Assembly: GCF_017877055.1 (NCBI RefSeq)
Contig: NZ_JAGIPG010000001.1
Location: 248,001-312,000, forward strand
Source: Neorhizobium galegae
Lineage (GTDB): Bacteria; Pseudomonadota; Alphaproteobacteria; Rhizobiales; Rhizobiaceae
DNA length: 64,000 nt
Direction: 5' to 3'
The first letter of the stretch is position 1; each line of letters begins with the position of its first letter. Both the position numbers and the translations under genes were made by a program. Below the pieces are notes generated by a model. The model was not told the origin of the DNA, made no database searches, and worked only from the letters and a program-made list of their open reading frames with translations. Below, piece by piece: positions 46,115 through 57,657 of the stretch.

Positions 46115-47836
46115 TCAAGCCGCGCGGACCAGCTGTTCGGCCTGACGCAGAGCCGAGATCACGCGGTTCTGGCCGCGCACAAGCTGCGTCCTGGCGAAGC
46201 CGAGCTTTTCAGGGCCGAGCTTGTCGAGGTCGGCGGCCGTCGAGATGGCGGGCAATTCCGGGATGGGCAAAGCCGGGTCGTGGCGGAAGCGCTGCTCGCG
46301 GGTGTAGTTGAGCGGCACCAGGATGCGGGCGAGCCTCTGGATCACGTGGTTGGCGGCCTTCGGCTCGATCTTGCCGCTGTCGATCCCGGCGTAGAATGCG
46401 GCGAGTGCTTCGGCCAAGGACTCGACCGCCTTGCGGCTCGGCGAAAGGTCGAAGCGGTTGCCGGCCTTCTTCTGGTAGGTGTCGACTGTGTGAAGGAACT
46501 CCCTGGCGGTCGCGCGCCAGTCGAAGGGCAGGATCTTTGCGTTGGCATTGCGCAGCACGGCGAGCAGGTAAACCTTGATGTCGCGCAGCATGATGTCCTT
46601 GTCGGCGATCTCCAGCGTATCGTTTTCGGTGTGCCAGGCTATATTGGCGCCGCAGCCGCCGACCGTGTAGTAGCCCTTCTCCTCGCGGTCCCGTTCCGTC
46701 ATGGTCGAGGACAGCATCAGGTAGCTCGACAGGCCGATATTGTTGAAGGAATAGTCGCCGGCTCGGTGCGGGCGTTCTGCCTCGGCTTTCTTGCCCGCCA
46801 CTTCCTCGATGACGTCGGAGAGGAAGGCTTCCGTCTCGGTCATCATGCAGAGGTTGATGAATTCGGTTGCCCAGCGGCAGCCGGGGCTGTCGCAATTGAC
46901 CGAGGCGACGCAGTTTTCGTCAAGGTCGAGCGCAAAATTGTCGGAGAACCAGGTGGAGCCGGCATAACGGCCGGTCGAGTGGCCGGGCCACCAGCAGATG
47001 CGGATCGAGCGCTTCAACTTGTCGCGGTTGGCCCAGAGAACGCGGGCGATTTCGAGCATCGTTGCATCACCGGTGGCATTGTCGCCGACGCCGACATCCC
47101 AGCTGTCGAGATGGCCGTGCAGGAAGACGTATTTGTCGGGTTCCTCGGTGCCCTTGATGAAGACTTCCGGCAGTTTCGACTTGAACCAGCCCTCTTCCAT
47201 GTCGGCAAAGATGGTGACTTCGGTGCCGGTCCTGGCAAGCTCGATCAGCGCATCGCCGCTCTCGCGGTTGACGGCAACGGCCGGGATCGACGGCTTGCGC
47301 GGCAGGTCGTCGAGATCGGGCGTGCCCCAGACGGTAGTGCAGGTGCCCCAGTGGATATCGACGCCGGGGTTGATGGCGATGACGCCGACCGCGCCAAGCT
47401 CGGTGAACTGCGAAACGAGACCCGGATTGGCGAACCCTTCCGACAGGACCACTTTTCCGCGGACCCTGGCGGCGAGTTCGCCGGTGCCATCGACGGTTTT
47501 CTCGAACATGGTCGAGATCGCTTTCGGCTGGAGGCTGGCGATATAGACGATCTCGCCCTTCACGCCCTTCGATGCATCCAGCGAATAGGACGGCGGCTTG
47601 GCGCGGAAGGTTTTGCCCCCGGCTTCGACACGGGCAAGGCCCGGCAGGCTGAGAAACAGGTCTGCCTCGTGCATCTTGACCTCGACACCGTGCTTGGCGA
47701 GCCGCGCCGCGACCTCGTCCATGGCGCGGTTCACATCGGTCGGATGCTCGCGCTTGTAGGTCGCAAAGCTCTCCACCAGAGCCCAGGGTTCATCCAGCTT
47801 CACCGCTCCCAGAACGGCAGATTCGATCTCGTTCAT
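46115..47836 (-). CDS. M28-family metallopeptidase
   Basis: The 573-residue protein combines a PA-like insertion (about 85-220) with an M28 aminopeptidase core. Zinc-ligand motifs are FLHGHLDSWDVGVGDNATGD (His and Asp near 240-258) and the later Asp in NCDSPGCRW near 320. No signal peptide is seen, so it probably trims peptides in the cytoplasm. The promoter region contains the same palindrome (47867-47881) found upstream of the peptide importer, so it likely belongs to the IclR regulon with that operon. Confidence 0.85.
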   Translation of the reverse strand: MNEIESAVLGAVKLDEPWALVESFATYKREHPTDVNRAMDEVAARLAKHGVEVKMHEADLFLSLPGLARVEAGGKTFRAKPPSYSLDASKGVKGEIVYIASLQPKAISTMFEKTVDGTGELAARVRGKVVLSEGFANPGLVSQFTELGAVGVIAINPGVDIHWGTCTTVWGTPDLDDLPRKPSIPAVAVNRESGDALIELARTGTEVTIFADMEEGWFKSKLPEVFIKGTEEPDKYVFLHGHLDSWDVGVGDNATGDATMLEIARVLWANRDKLKRSIRICWWPGHSTGRYAGSTWFSDNFALDLDENCVASVNCDSPGCRWATEFINLCMMTETEAFLSDVIEEVAGKKAEAERPHRAGDYSFNNIGLSSYLMLSSTMTERDREEKGYYTVGGCGANIAWHTENDTLEIADKDIMLRDIKVYLLAVLRNANAKILPFDWRATAREFLHTVDTYQKKAGNRFDLSPSRKAVESLAEALAAFYAGIDSGKIEPKAANHVIQRLARILVPLNYTREQRFRHDPALPIPELPAISTAADLDKLGPEKLGFARTQLVRGQNRVISALRQAEQLVRAA

Positions 47837-48013: not shown

Positions 48014-48814
48014 TCAAGCCCTTGATTTCACGAGGCCGCTTTCGCCGGGGCCGTGGATCGAAAGGCGCTCGGAAATTTCCGCGGCGGCGTCGAGTGCGGC
48101 TTTCAAATGGCTTTCGCGGCGCTCCTCGTCGAAACGGGCGACAGCGCCGGCGACCGAGATCGAGGCGATGATCGTGCCGTCGGCGCCGGTGATCGGGGCG
48201 GCGACGGAGAAAGCGCCTTCGTCGAGATCGTTGAGGACGATGTTGTAGCCGTTGGCACGGATGCGCTCGAGGGCCTGGCGCAGTTTCGCCCGGTCGGTGA
48301 TCGTATAGGGCGTGAAGGCTTCGAGGGGCTGGGAGAGTGCCGCGTCGATGACCGACGGATCCGCGTAAGCCAGCAGAAGCAGCGATCCGCCGCCCGCATG
48401 CAGCGGGCCATTGCGTCCGGCCTGGGCAAAAAGCCGGATCGAATGCCGGCCGGCGCGGGTCGCCAGAACGTAGCTCTTCAGGCCTTCGCGCACCACAAGG
48501 TTGACGTTCTCGGATGTCTGGTCGCGGAGCGCATCCATGACCGGCCGGGCGGCGTAAAGCAGGGCGCCGTCCTTGCCGAGACGCTCGCCGAGCACGCCGA
48601 TGCGGTAGCCGAGCGCGTATTCGGCGCGTTCCGGATCGCGCGACACGAAGCCGCGTTCCTCCAGCGTGTGGAGCAGGCGGAACACCAGCGACTTGGTCAT
48701 CCCCAGCGATTTTGCAAGCGAGGTGACGCCCTGGTCCGGGCGGTCGGCAAGCGCTTCGAGAAGGGCGAGCGCCCGGTCCACCGCCGCGATCTTGTAGTCT
48801 TTTGGTTCGGTCAT
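48014..48814 (-). CDS. IclR-family transcriptional regulator
   Basis: The 266-residue protein has an IclR winged helix (about 10-75: AVDRALALLEALA, VTSLAKSLGMTKSLVFRLL, ALGYRIG) and the effector-binding domain (about 80-255: SGRNGPLHAGG-like and GAFSVAAPITGADGTIIASIS). GGAGGAGA precedes ATG 48814. It lies between the M28 gene (same strand, downstream) and the divergent importer operon; matching palindromes occur in both promoter regions, so it probably controls both. Confidence 0.9.
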   Translation of the reverse strand: MTEPKDYKIAAVDRALALLEALADRPDQGVTSLAKSLGMTKSLVFRLLHTLEERGFVSRDPERAEYALGYRIGVLGERLGKDGALLYAARPVMDALRDQTSENVNLVVREGLKSYVLATRAGRHSIRLFAQAGRNGPLHAGGGSLLLLAYADPSVIDAALSQPLEAFTPYTITDRAKLRQALERIRANGYNIVLNDLDEGAFSVAAPITGADGTIIASISVAGAVARFDEERRESHLKAALDAAAEISERLSIHGPGESGLVKSRA

Positions 48815-48897
48815 CGGATGGTCTCCTCCGGCATGTGATTTGGATTGCTTGAAGCTTCTTGCAATCTTCTTGGAATGTGTTTTACTCGCTCTCAATG

Positions 48898-48912
48898 CGA
48901 AACGATGTTTCA
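48898..48912. promoter_or_regulatory. IclR-type operator upstream of the peptide importer
   Basis: CGAAAC-GAT-GTTTCA differs in one outer base from the palindrome at 47867. It lies in the 283-base divergent region between the IclR gene and the binding-protein gene, 84 bases upstream of the regulator start and about 185 upstream of the binding protein. Confidence 0.7.
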
Positions 48913-49097
48913 CAGAATAAAACATTGAGAGGCGGGTTGCAAACCCTTACGGCGCACTCATTGAGAATTCTGTGAATTGAGTATCGGCGTCGAATGCGCG
49001 GGAAACGTGTTCGATGGCCGATTTCGGATTTGCGATGCGGAGGGAGAAAACCCTTCGCCAACAAGAGAATAGTCAAGCTATTCAGAGGAGAACGACC

Positions 49098-50750
49098 ATG
49101 AAGTCCGTTTTGAGAAGTGCATTCGCAGCTCTTGTGGTAACAGCCATCGCTCTGCCTGCCTGGGCCGGCGATCCGATCCGCAAGATCACCATCCTCTCCC
49201 GCCCGCAGGCCGGCCAGCAGGCGGAATTCCAGTCCGTCCAGCTGATCGCCCAGGAATGGCGCAAGCTCGGCCTCGATGTCGAAGTCCGGGCCATTCCCTG
49301 GGAGCAGATGTCCGACGAAGTCTGGTACAAGCGCGACCAGTGGGACTCGACCGCCTGGCAGATGGTCGGCCGGCCTGAGCGCTCCGATCCGGACGAGCTC
49401 ATCTTCAACCTCTTCCATTCCTCGACCGCCAAGGATGGCTACAATTTCGCGGGCTACCTGAACAAGGATTACGATGCGACCGCCGAAGCCCAGCGCGGCG
49501 AGATCGATCCGGCCAAGCGCAAGGCGCTCGTCTTCAAGGCGCAGGAGATCCTGTCGAAAGATCAGCCCTACATGATGCTGGTGCATCCGAAGTCGACCTT
49601 CGCTTTCGACAAGACCGTCTGGAAGCCGGAATCGGTCGTCAACCAGAGTGGCATCGGCATCCGCAACACCTGGACCTTCCTCGGCATCGAGCCGGCTGGA
49701 CCCAAGAAGGACCTGATCATCAACTCGTCCGACAATATCAAGGCGATCAATCCGCTTTATATCTCGGGCAGCGTCGACAGCTGGATCACCGAACTCGTCT
49801 GGGACCGCCTGCTGCGCGTCGGCCCGGACGGCCTGCCGAAGGCATGGGCCGCCGAAGGCTTCACCTGGAAGGACGGCACCACGGTCGATGTGAAGCTGAA
49901 ATCCGGCATGAAGTGGCATGACGGCAAGCCGGTCACGCCGGAGGACGTCAAGTTCTCGTTCGAAGCGGCAGTCGGCGGCGAAGCCCCGATGTACAAGCCT
50001 TTTGCGACGAATATCGATGCGATCACCATCAACGGCGATGTCATCACCTTCAAGCTGAAGAAACCGGCCGCCTCCTTCGTGACGTCCAGCCTTGCCAAGG
50101 TCAACCTGATCCCGAAGCATATCTGGGAGCCGATCCTCAAGGATCTCGCCACCAAGCCGGAGACTGCGGAAAGCTATCAGGAGCAGATGCCGATCGGCTC
50201 CGGTCCGTTCAAGTTCACCAGCTGGGCCAAGAACGAGTCCGTCACGCTTGCCGCCAACAAGGACCACTTCGCCGCGCCGAAGGTCGATCGCTGGATCCTG
50301 CGTATCGTACCGAACGCGGAAGCCGCACTCGGCATGCTGCGCTCGGGTGAGATCAACTTCATGGGCGAGTTCACCGGCGATCCGCAGGTGCTGATCGATG
50401 CCGCCAAGAAGGACGGCGACCTGGAAGTGGTTTCCACCGTCGACATGGGCTTTCGCTACATCGCCTTCAACGAACGCCGCCCGCCCTTCAACGACCCGGC
50501 TTTCCGTCGTGCGCTTTCCGAAGCGGTCGATCGCCAGCTGATCGTCAAGGCTGCCTATCGCGGTTTCGCGGTCGCCTCGAACTCCATCGTCTCTCCGGCG
50601 CTCGAATACTGGCATGACAAGTCGGTCGTCGACAGCTTCAAGGCCGGACAGGCCGTTGCGGCCAAGACCCTGAAGGATGCCGGCTATACGCTGGACGGTG
50701 GCAAGCTTCGCTATCCGGGCGATACCAAGGAAACCGTCGTCGCCAAGTAA
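49098..50750 (+). CDS. Family-5 ABC substrate-binding protein, circularly permuted
   Basis: The 550-residue periplasmic protein has a signal peptide (1-23, cut after AWA). Residues about 26-195 read as the segment that is normally C-terminal in SBP_bac_5 proteins (QSVQLIAQEWRKLGLDVEV, LIFNLFHSS, AEAQRGEIDPAKRKA, DQPYMMLVHP). Residues about 203-550 then read as the normal N-terminal and middle part (TELVWDRLLRVGPDG, GMKWHDGKPVTPEDVKFSFE, MPIGSGPFKFTSW, YIAFNERRPPFNDPAFRRAL), ending near KTLKDAGYTLDGGKLRYPG, where the usual C-terminal part would begin. It serves the adjoining DppBCDF-type importer. AGAGGAG precedes ATG 49098. Confidence 0.85.
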   Translation: MKSVLRSAFAALVVTAIALPAWAGDPIRKITILSRPQAGQQAEFQSVQLIAQEWRKLGLDVEVRAIPWEQMSDEVWYKRDQWDSTAWQMVGRPERSDPDELIFNLFHSSTAKDGYNFAGYLNKDYDATAEAQRGEIDPAKRKALVFKAQEILSKDQPYMMLVHPKSTFAFDKTVWKPESVVNQSGIGIRNTWTFLGIEPAGPKKDLIINSSDNIKAINPLYISGSVDSWITELVWDRLLRVGPDGLPKAWAAEGFTWKDGTTVDVKLKSGMKWHDGKPVTPEDVKFSFEAAVGGEAPMYKPFATNIDAITINGDVITFKLKKPAASFVTSSLAKVNLIPKHIWEPILKDLATKPETAESYQEQMPIGSGPFKFTSWAKNESVTLAANKDHFAAPKVDRWILRIVPNAEAALGMLRSGEINFMGEFTGDPQVLIDAAKKDGDLEVVSTVDMGFRYIAFNERRPPFNDPAFRRALSEAVDRQLIVKAAYRGFAVASNSIVSPALEYWHDKSVVDSFKAGQAVAAKTLKDAGYTLDGGKLRYPGDTKETVVAK

Positions 50751-50757
50751 TCCTCGC

Positions 50758-50795
50758 GGAGGCGGCGGGCTCTCCTGGCGCCGCCTCCCTTTTTT
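50758..50795 (+). terminator. Terminator/attenuator between binding protein and permease
   Basis: GGAGGCGGC and GCCGCCTCC form a 9-bp stem (loop 13 bases) followed by C and six T. It begins 8 bases past the stop. Partial termination here would give the binding protein a surplus over the membrane components. Confidence 0.85.
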
Positions 50796-50870
50796 GCCTG
50801 ACGCTTGACATCGGCATGCCTCGCCTTTCCTCCCGAAGGGGCACCGAGCCAAGAGAAGGAATCTTTTCAG

Positions 50871-51848
50871 ATGAAGAATTTCAAGGCTGTGGGCAGCAGG
50901 TTGCTGCAGCTCGCTCTTGTTTTATGGGCGGTGGTGACCATCCTGTTTCTGATGTTTCGGCTGATGCCGGGCAATCCGATGGCCGCCTATATCGACCCGA
51001 CCTTTACGCTCGAGCAGCAGCAGCAGCTGATGGCCCAGTTCGGCCTCGACAAGCCGCTGTGGCATCAGTACCTGATCTATCTCGGCAACCTTCTGCAGGG
51101 CGAGCTCGGCCAGAGTTTTCGCTACCGCGAGCCGGTCGGGCAGCGCATCTGGATCCTGTTGCCGAACACGCTGATCCTCACCTTTTCCTCGCTGATCGTC
51201 GCTTACGTCTTCGGCATTCTCGCCGGTGCCTATCTTGCCTGGCGCCGCGGCAGTTGGGTGGAGCAGGCGGCCATTCCGCTGGTGCTGACCACCCGCGCCA
51301 TGCCGGAATTCTGGCTCGGCATGGTGATGCTGGCGATCTTCTCGTTTTCGCTCGGCTGGCTGCCGGCCGGCGGCACGCGCGCTCCGGGCAATGAATATTC
51401 CGGCTTTCTCGACCTCTATACCTCGCGCGATTTCCTCGCCCATCTGGCGCTGCCGGCAGCGACGCTGGCGATCTACAGCCAGGGCCTGCCGCTTCTCCTG
51501 ATGCGCTCCAACATGCTCGACGTGATGAAGGAGGACTTCGTCACCATGGCCCGCATCAAGGGCCTGTCCAACTGGACCGTGGTGGTGCGTCATGCTGCCC
51601 GCAATGCGCTGCTGCCGGTGATGACCTCGTTCGCGATTGCCGTCGGCTATCAGCTGCAGGGCAATGTCGTGGTGGAATCGGTATTCTCCTGGCCCGGCCT
51701 CGGCCGCGAACTGGTCAACGCGGTAGCGGCTTCCGACTATCCGCTGGCGCAGGGCGCCTTCCTGATGATCGCGCTCGTGGTGATCTTCATGAACTTGGCT
51801 GCAGACCTGCTCTACGCTTTCCTCGATCCAAGGATTTCCCATGCCTGA
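50871..51848 (+). CDS. Oligopeptide-type ABC permease (DppB family)
   Basis: The 325-residue permease shows the DppB/OppB N-terminus (LFLMFRLMPGNPM near residue 25), six helices and the coupling loop EDFVTMARIKGLSNWTV near 220. ATG 50871 has AAGAGAAGGA upstream. It overlaps the next permease by 8 bases. Confidence 0.92.
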   Translation: MKNFKAVGSRLLQLALVLWAVVTILFLMFRLMPGNPMAAYIDPTFTLEQQQQLMAQFGLDKPLWHQYLIYLGNLLQGELGQSFRYREPVGQRIWILLPNTLILTFSSLIVAYVFGILAGAYLAWRRGSWVEQAAIPLVLTTRAMPEFWLGMVMLAIFSFSLGWLPAGGTRAPGNEYSGFLDLYTSRDFLAHLALPAATLAIYSQGLPLLLMRSNMLDVMKEDFVTMARIKGLSNWTVVVRHAARNALLPVMTSFAIAVGYQLQGNVVVESVFSWPGLGRELVNAVAASDYPLAQGAFLMIALVVIFMNLAADLLYAFLDPRISHA

Positions 51849-52755
51849 GATCGCAGCACCCGCCATCATCAAGCCGAGGCGCCCCCATATCCTTGCCCGG
51901 ATGTTCCGTGCACTCAGACTGCCGATGAACGACCCGTTCGCGGCCGCCGGTCTTCTCATCTATCTGGTGTTCATCGTCGTGGCGGTGTTTGCCGATCAGA
52001 TCGCCATGCATGACCCGACCGAAATCCTCTACACGCCAGCCTACGATCTCGCGGCGGACCTCCGGCCGGGGCAGGACGGTTTCATCATGGGAACCACCAG
52101 CCTCGGCCGGGATATCTTCTCGCAGCTCGTTTACGGCAGCCGCTCGGCGCTGCTGATCGGCATCACTGCCGCCTTCATGGTGGCGCTGATCGGCTCTGTC
52201 ATAGGTCTCGTCGCCGGTTATTTCGGCCGCTGGGTGGATGCCATCCTGATGCGGCTTGCAGATATCGCCTTCGGCATTCCCTTCCTGCCCTTCGTCATCG
52301 TGCTTGCGGCCTTCCTGAAGCCGTCGATCTGGAACGTCGTCATCGCCATGGCGCTGGTCCTGTGGCGCGATACCGCCCGCGTCATCCGCAGCCAGGTGCT
52401 GACGCTTCGGACCCGCGGTTATGTCGAGGCAGCGCGGGTGGCGGGGTCTTCCGATTTCAAGATCATCCTGCGCCATATCGCGCCGAACATCCTGCCGCTC
52501 TCCTTCCTCTACGGATCGATCGCGATCGGCTGGGCGATCCTGACCGAAGCGTCGATCAGTTTCCTGGGTTTCGGCGACCCCAACTCGATCAGCTGGGGCT
52601 ACATGCTGCAGGATGCATTTGCCAGCCAGGCGCTCGCCAAGCAGGCCTATTACTGGTTCGTGCCTCCGGGCATCTGCATCATCCTCGTCGTCAGCGCGGG
52701 CTTCTTCATCACCCGTGGTTATGAAAACATCCTCTTCCCGAAGTTGAGCCGATGA
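51841..52755 (+). CDS. Oligopeptide-type ABC permease (DppC family)
   Basis: The 304-residue partner permease has the DppC layout: a short cytoplasmic N-terminus, helix at about 37-58, the GTTSLGRDIFSQLVYGSR motif near 81-98 and the coupling loop RGYVEAARVAGSSDFK near 200. The stop overlaps the start of the ATPase gene (ATGA). Confidence 0.92.
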   Translation: MPEIAAPAIIKPRRPHILARMFRALRLPMNDPFAAAGLLIYLVFIVVAVFADQIAMHDPTEILYTPAYDLAADLRPGQDGFIMGTTSLGRDIFSQLVYGSRSALLIGITAAFMVALIGSVIGLVAGYFGRWVDAILMRLADIAFGIPFLPFVIVLAAFLKPSIWNVVIAMALVLWRDTARVIRSQVLTLRTRGYVEAARVAGSSDFKIILRHIAPNILPLSFLYGSIAIGWAILTEASISFLGFGDPNSISWGYMLQDAFASQALAKQAYYWFVPPGICIILVVSAGFFITRGYENILFPKLSR

Positions 52756-53768
52756 GCGAACCCCTTCTTTCCGTCCGGGACCTTCGGGTCAGCTATCAGG
52801 TGGGGCGCAATTTCGTCCATGCCGTGGATGGCGCGAGCTTCGACATCCCGCGCGGCTCGATTACCGGCCTCGTCGGCGAATCCGGCTGCGGCAAGACGAC
52901 CATTGCCCGTGCCCTGACGCGGGTGATTGCCGAAAATGCCGCGATCACCGGCGGACAGATCCTGTTCGACGGCAAGGATCTCGCAAAGATCCCCGAAAAG
53001 GAGATGAATGCGCTGCGCTGGCGCGACATCGCCTTCATTCCCCAGAGCGCCATGAATTCGCTCGATCCGGTCTATACGGTCGAATACCAGCTCGACGAAG
53101 TGCTGCGCCGCCGCGGCGGCCTGAACCGCAAACAGTCCCGTGCCCGTTCCGAAGAACTGTTCGAGATGGTCGGCATCGATGCGAACCGCCTGAACGATTA
53201 TCCGCACCAGTTCTCCGGCGGCATGCGCCAGCGCGTGGCCATCGCCTTGGCACTCGCCCTCGACCCGAAGCTGATCATCGCCGACGAGCCGGTGACGGCG
53301 CTGGATGTCATCGTGCAGCGGCAGATCCTCGACCAGCTCAAGGAGCTGCAGACGCGGCTCGGCGTTTCGGTGATCCTCGTCACCCACGACATCTCGGTCG
53401 TCGCCTATATCTGCGACCGCACCGTCGTCATGTATGCGGGCAAGGTGGCCGAATCCGGCACCATGCAGGCGGCACTGACCGCGCCGTCGCATCCCTACAC
53501 GATGGGCCTGCGCAATGCCTTTCCGGATCTGCAGGGGGCCGCCTCCGGCATCCTGACCCCGATCGAAGGCGCGCCGCCGAACCTTGCTTCGCCGCCGGCC
53601 GGCTGCCGGTTCAAGCCGCGCTGTCCTTTCGCGCTCGACATCTGCGGCACCGAGCCGCCGGTCATCGAGGTTGCGCCGGATCATCCGGTGCTCTGTCACC
53701 GCGCCCATGAGAGTGCTGCCTTGCGTATCGAATCCGCCAAGACGGAGACATGGATGGTCCCGGCATGA
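52752..53768 (+). CDS. Oligopeptide-type ABC ATPase (DppD family)
   Basis: The 338-residue ATPase has Walker [10 protein letters not shown] (about 42-50), the signature FSGGMRQRVAIALAL, Walker B LIIADEPVTALD and the C-terminal oligopeptide-transporter extension with cysteines CRFKPRCPFALDIC near 290-305, usual in DppD/OppD proteins. Confidence 0.93.
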   Translation: MSEPLLSVRDLRVSYQVGRNFVHAVDGASFDIPRGSITGLVGESGCGKTTIARALTRVIAENAAITGGQILFDGKDLAKIPEKEMNALRWRDIAFIPQSAMNSLDPVYTVEYQLDEVLRRRGGLNRKQSRARSEELFEMVGIDANRLNDYPHQFSGGMRQRVAIALALALDPKLIIADEPVTALDVIVQRQILDQLKELQTRLGVSVILVTHDISVVAYICDRTVVMYAGKVAESGTMQAALTAPSHPYTMGLRNAFPDLQGAASGILTPIEGAPPNLASPPAGCRFKPRCPFALDICGTEPPVIEVAPDHPVLCHRAHESAALRIESAKTETWMVPA

Positions 53769-54754
53769 ACATGATCGCCAAAAGGCCGGATATCCTGGTC
53801 TCGGTTTTTGATGCCAAGCTGCATTATGCCGTGGGTGGTGCATTCGCGGCCATGCGCGGCAAGTCGACGGTGGTGAAAGCCGTCGATGGCGTCAGCTTCG
53901 ATATCCGGCGGGGCGAAAGCGTCGGCCTTCTGGGTGAATCGGGCTGCGGCAAGACCTCGATGGGCCGGCTGCTGTTGAAGCTCGAGGAAAAGACTGGCGG
54001 TACGATCCATTTCGACGGCGAGGAGATCGGTGCCGTCCGGGGCAGCGGGCTGAAGAAATTCCGCTCCAAGGCACAGCTGATCTTCCAGAACCCGTTCGAT
54101 GCGATCAATCCGCGCTTCACCATCCGCCAGACGCTGGCTGAGCCGCTGGAAAATGCCGACATCCCGAGGCGCGAGCGCGAGGGCCGGATCATCACCGCGC
54201 TCGAACTGGTGAAGCTGCCCGAGCCGGCGCAGTTCCTCGACCGTTATCCGCACCAGCTCTCCGGCGGCCAGCTGCAGCGTGTCGTGATGGCGCGGGCGCT
54301 GATCCTGCAGCCGGAATTCGTGGTAGCCGACGAGCCGGTCTCGATGCTTGACGTGTCGGTGCGTGCCGGCGTGCTCAACGTTTTCCGCGACGTCCGCGAC
54401 CGGCTGGGCCTCACCGCCATCTATATCAGCCACGACCTGGCGCTGGTGCGTTACGTTTGCGAGCGGACGATCGTCATGTATCTCGGCCGGATCATGGAAG
54501 ACGGGCCGACCGAGGATATCGTTCGCGAACCGCTGCATCCCTATACCAAGGCGCTGGTCGCCGCCGTTCCGGTGCCGAACCCGGACCAGAGCCATGATCC
54601 GCTGCCGATCGGCCGCGGCGCGCCGGACCCGCGCAATCCGCCCTCCGGCTGCGTGTTTCGTGACCGCTGTCCGGCAGCTCATGCGCGCTGCGCATCCGAA
54701 ATACCGCTGCCGAAACCGGTCGGCACCCGCACCGTTGCCTGCCACCTGTACTGA
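53765..54754 (+). CDS. Oligopeptide-type ABC ATPase (DppF family)
   Basis: The 329-residue second ATPase has Walker [10 protein letters not shown], the signature [15 protein letters not shown], Walker [13 protein letters not shown] and the C-terminal Cys motif [17 protein letters not shown] 53765 gives the four-base ATGA overlap with the previous gene; ATG 53750 is also possible. An insert of about 20 residues ([15 protein letters not shown]) before the first beta-strand is typical of DppF relatives. Confidence 0.92.
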
Positions 54755-54766
54755 TTGGAGTTATCG

Positions 54767-55774
54767 ATGCTTGCCGCCTCCTACACACGCACCGGTCCCG
54801 CCGCGGAGGTTCTCTCCGTGGCTGAGATGGCTGCACCGGTCGCCGGTCCCGGCGAGGTGCTGGTGCGCGTGCATGCGTCCGGCATCAATCCGGCCGACGT
54901 GAAACGCCGCGGCGGCTGGCGCGGCATGGGCATGGATCATCCGCTGATCATCCCGCATACGGATGGTGCCGGCGAGATCGTCGGGGTCGGCGCGGGTGTC
55001 GACAAAGGCCGCATCGGCGAGCGGGTCTGGATGTGGAATGCCCAGGGCGGTTATGGAGAGACGGGCCGTGCTTTTGGCACCGCCGCCGAATTCATCGCCA
55101 TTGCATCGCATCAGGCGGTGAAGCTTGCCGATGCCTTGAGTTTTGCCGATGGCGCCAATCTCGGCGTGCCGGCGATGACCGCCTATCGCGCGGTTTTCGC
55201 CGATGGCCCGGTGACCGGTCAGACGATATTCGTGAACGGCGCGGCCGGCGCAGTTGGCCATTTCTCGGTGCAGATGGCGGTTGCCGGCGGTGCGCGGGTG
55301 ATCGGCACTGTCAGCACGGCGGAGGCTGCGGCGCATGTGAAGGAAGCCGGTGCCTTCGCAACAATCGACCGCAAGACGGAAGACGTATCGGCCCGTATCC
55401 TCCAACTGACCAACGGAGAAGGTGTCGACCGCGTCGTCGAGGTCGATTTCGGGGCGAACCTGGAACTCGACGCGGCCGTGCTGAAACGCAACGGTACCGT
55501 CGCCTCCTACTCGTCGAGCAGCAATCCGACGCCTGTGCTTCCCTACTACGCCTTCGCGGCCAAGGGCGCCAACCTGCGCTTCATCCAGGGTTTCCTGATC
55601 CCGGAGGATCAGCGGCTGGCGGGCGAAAAGATGATCGCCGAGCTTGCCGATGCCGGCAGGCTCAAGGTCGCCATCGGCGCGACATTCCCGCTCCACGAAA
55701 TCGCCAAGGCCCATGAGCGCGTCGAGCGGGGAAGTCTCGGCAATGTCGTCGTTCTGATCGGAGGTGCCCAATGA
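54767..55774 (+). CDS. Zinc-independent NADPH:quinone reductase (MDR family)
   Basis: The 335-residue protein is a quinone oxidoreductase of the medium-chain dehydrogenase superfamily without zinc ligands. It has a GroES-like half (GEVLVRVHASGINPADVKRR at 27-46) and a Rossmann half with the NADPH motif NGAAGAVGHFSVQMA near 158. ATG 54767 has TTGGAG upstream. Its end overlaps the hydantoinase B gene (ATGA), so it is an integral part of the operon, although its place in hydantoin or oxoproline metabolism is unclear. Confidence 0.88.
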   Translation: MLAASYTRTGPAAEVLSVAEMAAPVAGPGEVLVRVHASGINPADVKRRGGWRGMGMDHPLIIPHTDGAGEIVGVGAGVDKGRIGERVWMWNAQGGYGETGRAFGTAAEFIAIASHQAVKLADALSFADGANLGVPAMTAYRAVFADGPVTGQTIFVNGAAGAVGHFSVQMAVAGGARVIGTVSTAEAAAHVKEAGAFATIDRKTEDVSARILQLTNGEGVDRVVEVDFGANLELDAAVLKRNGTVASYSSSSNPTPVLPYYAFAAKGANLRFIQGFLIPEDQRLAGEKMIAELADAGRLKVAIGATFPLHEIAKAHERVERGSLGNVVVLIGGAQ

Positions 55775-57657
55775 GCACCCGATCGATCCATTCCACAGCA
55801 TCCAACGAGGATTCCGAGATGTACAATCCCAAGGAAAGCGAAAGCACGCCCACGAGGGCGGTAAAACCGGAAGGATCCGTCTGCGATCCCGTTTCGCTCG
55901 AAATCATCCGCGGCGCGATCGCCGCCGCCCAGTCGGAAATGGAAGCGCTTCTCGAGCGCACCGCCATCTCCGCCTTCATCCGCGAGAAGAAAGACTTTTA
56001 TACCGCATTGTTCGATGGCGAAGGCGTCATGGCGGTCGGTTCCATGGTGCCGGTCTTCGGCGACATGACCGGCCCGGTCTTCGACAAGTTCCCGGCCGAC
56101 ACGATGAAACCCGGCGATCTCTACTGGTACAATGACTGCTACGGCTCGCGCGGCGCGGTTTCGCATTCCAACGACCAGGTCCTGCTCGCGCCGGTGTTCA
56201 AAGACGGCAAGCGTTGCGCCTTCGTGATGAGCTGGGCGCATTTCGCCGATATCGGCGGCATGCGGCCGGGCTCGATCAGCCCGGATGCGACCGACATCTA
56301 CCAGGAAGGCATCATCATTCCGGTCACCAAGCTGATGGACCAGGGCGTCACCAACGACGCGACGCTTGACATCTTCCACCGCAATTCGCGCTTTCCCGAA
56401 CAGAGCATCGGCGACATGCGCGCGCTGATGGCGAGCGTCGATGTGGGCGTGAAGCGCATCGGCGAAATCCTCGACCGCTTCGGCTCCGACGTTGTTGAAG
56501 ATGCGCTGGCGCAGCTGCTGACCCGCACCCGCAAGCTGGTGCGCTCCAGGCTCGCCGAGACCTTCGACTACGGCACGCACAAATTCACCGACGCGATCGA
56601 CAGCGACGGCCATGGTAACGGCCCGTTCAAGATGCGTCTCTCGCTGACCCGTGAAAAGCTCGCGAATGGCGAGGACAAGTTCACCTTCGATGCGACCGAG
56701 TCCGACGATCAGGCACCCGGTCCGATCAATTTCCTGATGAACCGCGGCGTACCGGGCATGGCGCTCGGTCTCTTCTATCTCGGCGGCGATCCGGGCCAGG
56801 TCTGCAATGCCGGCGGTCCGCAGGCGCTGGATGCCGTGAACCTGCGCCAGGGCTCCTTCCTGCAGCCGAACTTCCCCGCGGCACTCGGCATGCGCGGCCT
56901 GACCATGATGCGCGTGCTGTCGGCTCTGAACGGCCTCGTCAACACGGCGGGCGGCAAGGCGCCGGCCTCCAACTCGGCCTATGTCATCACCATCATGCGC
57001 GGCAACTACAAGGATGACGCAGGCGACCTGAAGCGCTTCCTGCTCGCCGACGGCATCGGCGTCGGTTACGGCGCGCGGCCGGATTCGGACGGTATCGACG
57101 CGGTCTATTTCGTGGCGCAGGAGAACTATCCTGTCGAGTTCCTCGAAGTCGGTTATCCGGTGCGGCTGCGCACCTATGGCATCGTCAAGGATTCCGGCGG
57201 GGCCGGCAAATTCCGCGGCGGCTGCGGCATCATCCGCGAATACGAAATCCTCGCGGAAGACATGATGCTCGCCGTGCGCATCGACAGCGTCAAGAACCCA
57301 CCCTGGGGCATCAATGGCGGCATGGGCGGCGGCACCGGCCGCGTCACCATCAATCCGGGCCGGCCCGACCAGCGCATCGTGCCGCCGCTTTCGGACGGCA
57401 ACAGGCTCGTCAAGGGTGACGTGCTGCGCATGGAGACCGGCGGGGGCGGGGGCTACGGCCATCCGTTCGACCGCGATCTCGATGCGATCCTCGAAGACGT
57501 GCTCGGCGGTTTCGTCAGCGCCGAATCCGCAGAGCGCCTCTATGGCGTCGTCGTGAAGGGCACCAAGGTTGACCAGGCGGCTACGGCCGCACTTCGCGCC
57601 AACCGACCCGCTACCCGTGCATTCCATCGTCAGGAGTATGTCGATGTCCTCGCCTGA
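55771..57657 (+). CDS. Hydantoinase B/5-oxoprolinase family subunit
   Basis: The 628-residue protein is a HyuB-type subunit. Characteristic stretches are DPVSLEIIRGAIAAAQSEM near 40, GAVSHSNDQVLLAPV near 130, FDATESDDQAPGPINF near 308 and the glycine-rich GINGGMGGGTGR near 510 and GGGGGYGHPFDRD near 560. With HyuA it performs ATP-driven opening of a 5-membered cyclic amide such as N-methylhydantoin or 5-oxoproline; which one cannot be told. The first ATG (55771) overlaps the quinone reductase stop; ATG 55819 lies closer to the conserved domain. Confidence 0.9.
   Translation: MSTRSIHSTASNEDSEMYNPKESESTPTRAVKPEGSVCDPVSLEIIRGAIAAAQSEMEALLERTAISAFIREKKDFYTALFDGEGVMAVGSMVPVFGDMTGPVFDKFPADTMKPGDLYWYNDCYGSRGAVSHSNDQVLLAPVFKDGKRCAFVMSWAHFADIGGMRPGSISPDATDIYQEGIIIPVTKLMDQGVTNDATLDIFHRNSRFPEQSIGDMRALMASVDVGVKRIGEILDRFGSDVVEDALAQLLTRTRKLVRSRLAETFDYGTHKFTDAIDSDGHGNGPFKMRLSLTREKLANGEDKFTFDATESDDQAPGPINFLMNRGVPGMALGLFYLGGDPGQVCNAGGPQALDAVNLRQGSFLQPNFPAALGMRGLTMMRVLSALNGLVNTAGGKAPASNSAYVITIMRGNYKDDAGDLKRFLLADGIGVGYGARPDSDGIDAVYFVAQENYPVEFLEVGYPVRLRTYGIVKDSGGAGKFRGGCGIIREYEILAEDMMLAVRIDSVKNPPWGINGGMGGGTGRVTINPGRPDQRIVPPLSDGNRLVKGDVLRMETGGGGGYGHPFDRDLDAILEDVLGGFVSAESAERLYGVVVKGTKVDQAATAALRANRPATRAFHRQEYVDVLA

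Follow-up and report, generated by a model that had tools for sequence, protein, structure and literature searches.

A naturally permuted family-5 solute-binding protein from Neorhizobium galegae, with relatives in Alphaproteobacteria and Haloarchaea

Introduction

The family-5, or cluster C, solute-binding proteins (Pfam PF00496) include DppA, OppA, AppA and NikZ, and are encoded in operons with DppB-like permeases and ATPases carrying the oligo_HPY domain. In the available excerpts of PMC12136057, R383 and D436 of DppA are described as holding the ends of the dipeptide, and E41 and R42 as the charges of the DppB scoop. Circular permutation has been published as a natural feature of one ABC-importer binding protein, TpMglB-2 (Tp0684) of Treponema pallidum, which belongs to a different cluster and is named 'Type Ic / Cluster Bc'. 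According to the excerpts of that report, the permutation is common to a clade and ligand binding is kept, while the permuted stretch is poorly conserved, its authors considering a source in a different gene possible (PMC4990184). It was the one natural permutation of a binding protein that we recognised in searches of the open-access full-text literature. Within family 5 these searches found none, and there the statement of a first-pass annotation of our sequence, which knew of no such description, held. PMC2588589 and PMC2265533, in which the relevant terms appear together, proved unrelated in the content available.

Here we analyse a gene found at 49098-50750 in a 64,000-nucleotide stretch of Neorhizobium galegae DNA (the window, whose positions are used throughout). 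Its product was proposed in that annotation to be a family-5 binding protein with the usual C-terminal part first.

Results

Organization of the gene and its product

The gene (49098-50750, + strand) is a single open frame of 550 codons without internal stops. An alternative in-frame ATG lies upstream at 49014, but an AGGAG motif and, by inspection, a signal peptide (MKSVLRSAFAALVVTAIALPAWA|GD) fit the start at 49098 instead. Residues 1-23 (49098-49166) form this signal peptide, with cleavage at AWA|GD. It is followed by the usual C-terminal segment of the family, now N-terminal (approximately residues 26-194, 49173-49679, delimited by PDB search and HMM and corresponding to canonical profile positions 351 onward), and by a linker of about eight residues, LGIEPAGP (residues 195-202, 49680-49703), which rotation and length comparisons place between the old C-terminus and the old mature N-terminus. 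The usual N-terminal and middle part then occupies approximately residues 203-540 (49704-50717; canonical profile 24-347, by Pfam, PDB search and HMM). The chain closes on residues 541-550 (50718-50747), a new C-terminal tail assigned to the split loop from its sequence and from loop lengths; these final ten or so residues, ending in DTKETVVAK, look like a free tail. Antisense to the gene runs a 656-codon open frame (48882-50852, - strand), which we record as an open frame only.

The two segments stand in swapped order

The protein belongs to SBP_bac_5, with 227.1 bits against a curated cut-off of 32.4, the best stretch aligning residues 249-539 with positions 4-287 of the 368-position Pfam profile. 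It lies far outside the DppA family NF043070 (101.8 bits, cut-off 1005), and Pfam, giving SBP_bac_5 only, places it outside cluster B (type I) as far as its sequence can tell. In a search against solved proteins, Bacillus subtilis AppA (1xoc, E = 5.9e-44) was matched in a crossed manner, residues 204-533 aligning with chain positions 22-347 and residues 38-171 with 368-496. When ten diverse members of the permuted group were combined into a profile, 114 solved sequences matched it, and among the 60 shown no best stretch crossed the junction. Judged by their names, the proteins shown for the two PDB searches (60 of 100 matches, and 60 of 114 for the profile) are oligopeptide-, dipeptide- and nickel-type binding proteins.

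The host genome itself provides a canonical reference. Its Pfam search gave 50 SBP_bac_5 matches, two of which are the permuted protein (profile 291-366 upstream and 4-294 downstream, in the same frame) and the other 48 single, so that the split occurs in just one of 49 family-5 proteins. Forty-nine proteins with a family-5 match is in itself a large set for one genome. From 30 of the 48 canonical paralogues, taken at full length, we built an HMM of 511 positions. Residues 29-174 of the permuted protein match profile 351-491 and residues 198-531 match profile 24-347, each once, which bears out both the proposed order and the claim that each half occurs singly. When the chain was rotated in silico to canonical order, the two stretches merged into one match (profile 29-491) and the score rose from 224 to 302 bits.

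The crossed order, with the C-terminal profile part (start 342-375) first, was found in 42 of 42 permuted proteins, a panel taken from full-length permuted-order matches and thus selected for that order. All 49 canonical comparators, 30 of them used in building the HMM and 19 not, are collinear in one stretch, and none is crossed. Rotation produced a single longer match in 40 of the 42, with a median gain of 75 bits; two (L067 and L105) gained nothing. All 19 loci of a later batch (L116-L134) and L089 are crossed as well, as are L014 and L095, whose frames are broken; L014 was left out of the HMM panel for its frame break, and L095, like L066 (at a contig edge, with the N-terminal and middle part only), was not counted as tested. 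L051, L084 and L108 are in canonical order.

All parts of a canonical chain are thus present once and the canonical order is not found, which makes the protein a variant rather than an ordinary SBP_bac_5 member. An alignment of the native order along the full length of canonical proteins, sought as the result that would have told against the proposal, was not found either. The homology of residues 26-195 to the canonical C-terminal part argues against their being a separate extra domain. On sequence criteria, the product of 49098-50750 is confirmed as a circularly permuted solute-binding protein of family 5 (SBP_bac_5, cluster C).

Break point, linker and loop

The first piece of the host protein extends to profile 491 (residue 174), and profile 24 (residue 198) marks the start of the second. 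Canonical proteins have a median of 20 residues beyond profile 491, and their signal peptide ends near profile 28 on our reading of the profile consensus; permuted proteins have a median of 28 residues between profile 491 and 29. This difference indicates a linker of about eight residues, 195-202, in agreement with the boundaries at residues 195 and 203 originally put forward. The junction measures 21-30 residues in 41 of 42 permuted proteins, and 51 in the remaining one.

Profile positions 347 and 351 bracket the new ends, which fall in a loop of variable length flanked by a helix ending in 'AGY' and a strand 'ITIL'. The examined permuted relatives have this one break point in common, at a nearly identical position. 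From profile 345 to 353 the loop counts 6-20 residues in the 49 canonical proteins, against about 28 in the host protein when its ends are rejoined. The early expectation that the joined ends would form a seamless canonical linker was thus only roughly right, the rejoined loop being longer than that of any of the 49 canonical proteins.

Because the old C- and N-termini are close together and the cut falls in a surface loop, the fold is presumably the usual two-lobed 'Venus flytrap', its old termini closed by the short linker. An AlphaFold model built from 14 close relatives had a mean pLDDT of 40, and a second one, whose input was widened by L014 in its open part and by two canonical viral-contig proteins cut at the break, reached 55; neither is of usable quality. 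With the second model, Foldseek gave partial matches of 252-391 columns, whose rmsd was 10-16 A among the 50 shown.

Distribution among genomes and plasmids

The permutation is common to a clade, a broad family in Alphaproteobacteria and Haloarchaea, a possibility that the first-pass annotation had left to a homologue search. A scan of GTDB contigs for close relatives yielded 14 loci of the same order at 68-99% identity, in Neorhizobium, Rhizobium, Xaviernesmea, a further Rhizobiaceae, Mesorhizobium, Aquibium, Aquamicrobium and Salinarimonas. The Aquamicrobium MAG gene (L014, 5929-7580) is frame-shifted near its end, through a sequencing error or as a pseudogene. Whole-genome searches, covering the host's own phylum and scored on a permuted alignment, gave full-length permuted matches for 12 of the 57 genomes searched in the genus, the host included. 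Since 3-4 best candidates per genome were scored at the wider ranks, the counts there are lower bounds: at least 16 of 397 genomes in the order and at least 13 of 385 in the class (the host included in both, the latter with one further match severed by a contig end), and at least 1 of 299 in the phylum sample, this one being the host. The species are unevenly sampled, and some loci drawn from different collections may represent one species.

With a Halalkalicoccus member as tblastn query against plasmids, 33 haloarchaeal plasmids among the best 60 of 2796 records gave a one-piece match covering at least 80% of the query. On haloarchaeal plasmids the permuted form extends down to about 24% identity. 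Ten of the haloarchaeal records tested for order carry an intact gene (11 proteins), to which L089 is added; L095 has broken frames. Full-length matches on alphaproteobacterial plasmids include Roseomonas, Ketogulonicigenium, Nitratireductor, Microvirga and Maritalea. Plasmid matches from Deinococcus and Fusobacterium, nearly full length but in two pieces, proved canonical on reading, and a Cetobacterium match also appears nearly full length in two pieces. Two other candidates were rejected: a Phyllobacterium match (H95) spans two tandem canonical genes, and a Pararhizobium match (H147) begins in an aminotransferase gene and continues into a canonical binding protein. Viral contigs gave no close relative, only the canonical L084 and, among nine loci, the canonical binding protein L108.

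Phylogeny and selection

In the main tree (84 rows in canonical order; IQ-TREE, LG+C20+F+G4), as in the others, seven close relatives (L001-L004, L007, L008 and L013) were omitted. The 35 permuted rows all fall on one side of a branch with support 90/52, as they do in 90% of 200 bootstraps, and none of 500 shuffles grouped them as well. The tree of the N-terminal and middle part agrees. The nearest canonical row, the Cytobacillus plasmid protein L106, joins the permuted rows at 100/99; its break-point loop, at 20 residues, is the longest among the 49 canonical proteins, and by inspection it has a C-terminal membrane anchor. It differs from the permuted clade in its canonical order. Haloarchaeal and alphaproteobacterial rows are interleaved, Halalkalicoccus L045 grouping with L049, L061-L065 and L098 (95/92), which suggests transfer between the domains.

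Could the same favourable loop have been cut independently, several times? Its length varies widely in canonical proteins, making it a plausible hot spot, the branch carrying the single origin has a support of 90/52, and the shorter C-segment tree requires two changes, of which well-supported branches force one. Against this stand the one-sided grouping, recovered in nine bootstraps out of ten and again with the N-terminal and middle part, and the near-identical break point with its narrow range of junction lengths. We consider repeated permutation unlikely. One old origin, followed by transfer between Archaea and Alphaproteobacteria, is likely from these trees.

In pairwise comparisons of the host protein with six relatives, the moved segment has a dN/dS of 0.00-0.12 and the remainder of the chain one of 0.065-0.089; by these ratios, both halves are under purifying selection.

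Genomic context

Downstream of the permuted gene, which heads the operon, lie all on the + strand, by Pfam, a DppB-type permease (50871-51848; phmmer to Escherichia coli DppB, 2.4e-58), a second permease of the BPD_transp_1 type in the DppC/OppC position (51841-52755), and two ABC ATPases with the oligo_HPY domain (52752-53768 and 53750-54754). This is the layout of a Dpp/Opp-type importer. An IclR-family regulator gene is divergent from it (48014-48925, - strand; Pfam) and probably controls the operon. Only a 172-base gap (48926-49097) separates regulator and binding-protein genes here, at the place where L012 (3203-3964) and L104 (6181-6936) have an Asp/Glu racemase-family gene.

We read 16 annotated permuted records. 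Permease and ATPase genes follow the permuted gene in 13 of them, and in 10 of the 13 two permeases come first and two ATPases after them, with an interposed transposase in L052. Three haloarchaeal records (L053, L095 and L102) have neither adjoining the permuted gene. In these, a gene for a PAP2-type phosphatase comes next (L102, 4148-9573; L053, 6908-9540; L095, 5658-7628), annotated in L053 as inositol phosphorylceramide synthase, and L102 carries two such pairs of binding-protein and PAP2-type genes in succession.

Further out in the window are a gene for an M28 family peptidase (46115-47836, - strand) and one for a hydantoinase B/oxoprolinase (55771-57657, + strand), both by Pfam. Annotations place M28 genes next to the permuted gene in L047, L048, L052, L101 and L104 as well, and hydantoinase B/oxoprolinase genes near it in L047, L048 and L104. 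M28, M20 or M81 peptidase, hydantoinase/oxoprolinase, creatininase and Asp/Glu racemase genes occur near many, not all, permuted genes, and these neighbours point to small amide- or peptide-like substrates. Binding in the manner of DppA seems unlikely: in one alignment each, the residues corresponding to DppA R383 and D436 are Q37 and R92, so that the charges are not kept, and those corresponding to DppB E41 and R42 are D and P in the adjacent permease (residue roles from the excerpts of PMC12136057).

These replaced residues and the three haloarchaeal records without permeases would also fit a protein that has no part in import, such as a periplasmic receptor or a chaperone-like relic. The position of 49098-50750 directly before two permease and two ATPase genes, and the same kind of neighbourhood in 13 of the 16 records, make this quite improbable. 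We thus retain the binding protein of an importer.

Discussion

Our preferred reading, to which we give a probability of roughly 0.93, is that the gene at 49098-50750 encodes a functional binding protein, part of a Dpp/Opp-type ABC importer, and that the circular permutation of its chain is an ancient event. The protein would be exported by its N-terminal signal, would capture a small amide- or peptide-like solute in its cleft, and would deliver this to the permeases of the adjoining genes. The break point lies in what we take to be the C-lobe, so that the exported or anchored N-terminus would stand on this lobe and not on the N-lobe. Several haloarchaeal members have, by inspection, an N-terminal lipobox after a twin-arginine-like start, and are probably lipid-anchored. 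The alphaproteobacterial members that we inspected look soluble, so that anchoring cannot account for the permutation in general.

The permuted protein departs from the canonical family-5 proteins in its segment order and in where its chain now begins and ends, at the profile 347/351 loop, while both of its segments are homologous to theirs and its operon is of the same type. It resembles TpMglB-2 in being a natural, clade-wide permutation of an ABC-importer binding protein. That protein has a type I/cluster B sugar-binding fold in the excerpts of PMC4990184, whereas both segments of the 49098-50750 protein are clearly homologous to family 5.

The permutation could have arisen from two tandem binding-protein genes fused in frame. 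The first copy would have kept its signal peptide and lost its mature N-terminal and middle part, and the second would have lost its C-terminal part. This would have been a single event, followed by inheritance and by transfer between haloarchaea and Alphaproteobacteria. The tandem starting layout that permutation by duplication needs does exist in nature: a Phyllobacterium plasmid (L096, 382-7079) has four tandem binding-protein genes directly before oppB, the last two of which, when read, are canonical. Two permuted genes also lie close together in L102. No duplication intermediate was found among the relatives examined.

That an assembly error, a frameshift or a truncation fused parts of two adjacent binding-protein genes is scarcely credible, for although such genes do occur in tandem (L096) and a tblastn match can run across two of them (H95), the frame is single and free of stops with each half present once, the order recurs in 14 loci from other genome records (L014 being frame-shifted near its end), in finished plasmids and in archaea, and purifying selection acts on both halves.

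The permuted form is thus apparently an old, inherited and working redesign, not an error. It is worth recording because family 5 holds the textbook proteins DppA and OppA, yet our literature searches found no natural permutation in it. Annotation that depends on segment order has a blind spot here: in three of the five permuted proteins scanned, Pfam reported the N-terminal and middle stretch only. The break point, for its part, marks a tolerated site for permuted binding-protein sensors.

In conclusion, these proteins quite probably form an old subfamily of cluster C ('cluster Cc'), naturally permuted, of single origin and spread across Archaea and Bacteria, which would work with standard Dpp/Opp translocators even though the start of the chain, and with it export and, in several archaea, the lipid anchor, has moved to the other lobe. 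With its single break point and its members in both Archaea and Bacteria, the clade offers a natural test of whether import depends on the order of the chain, on the order of folding and on the lobe that carries the anchor.
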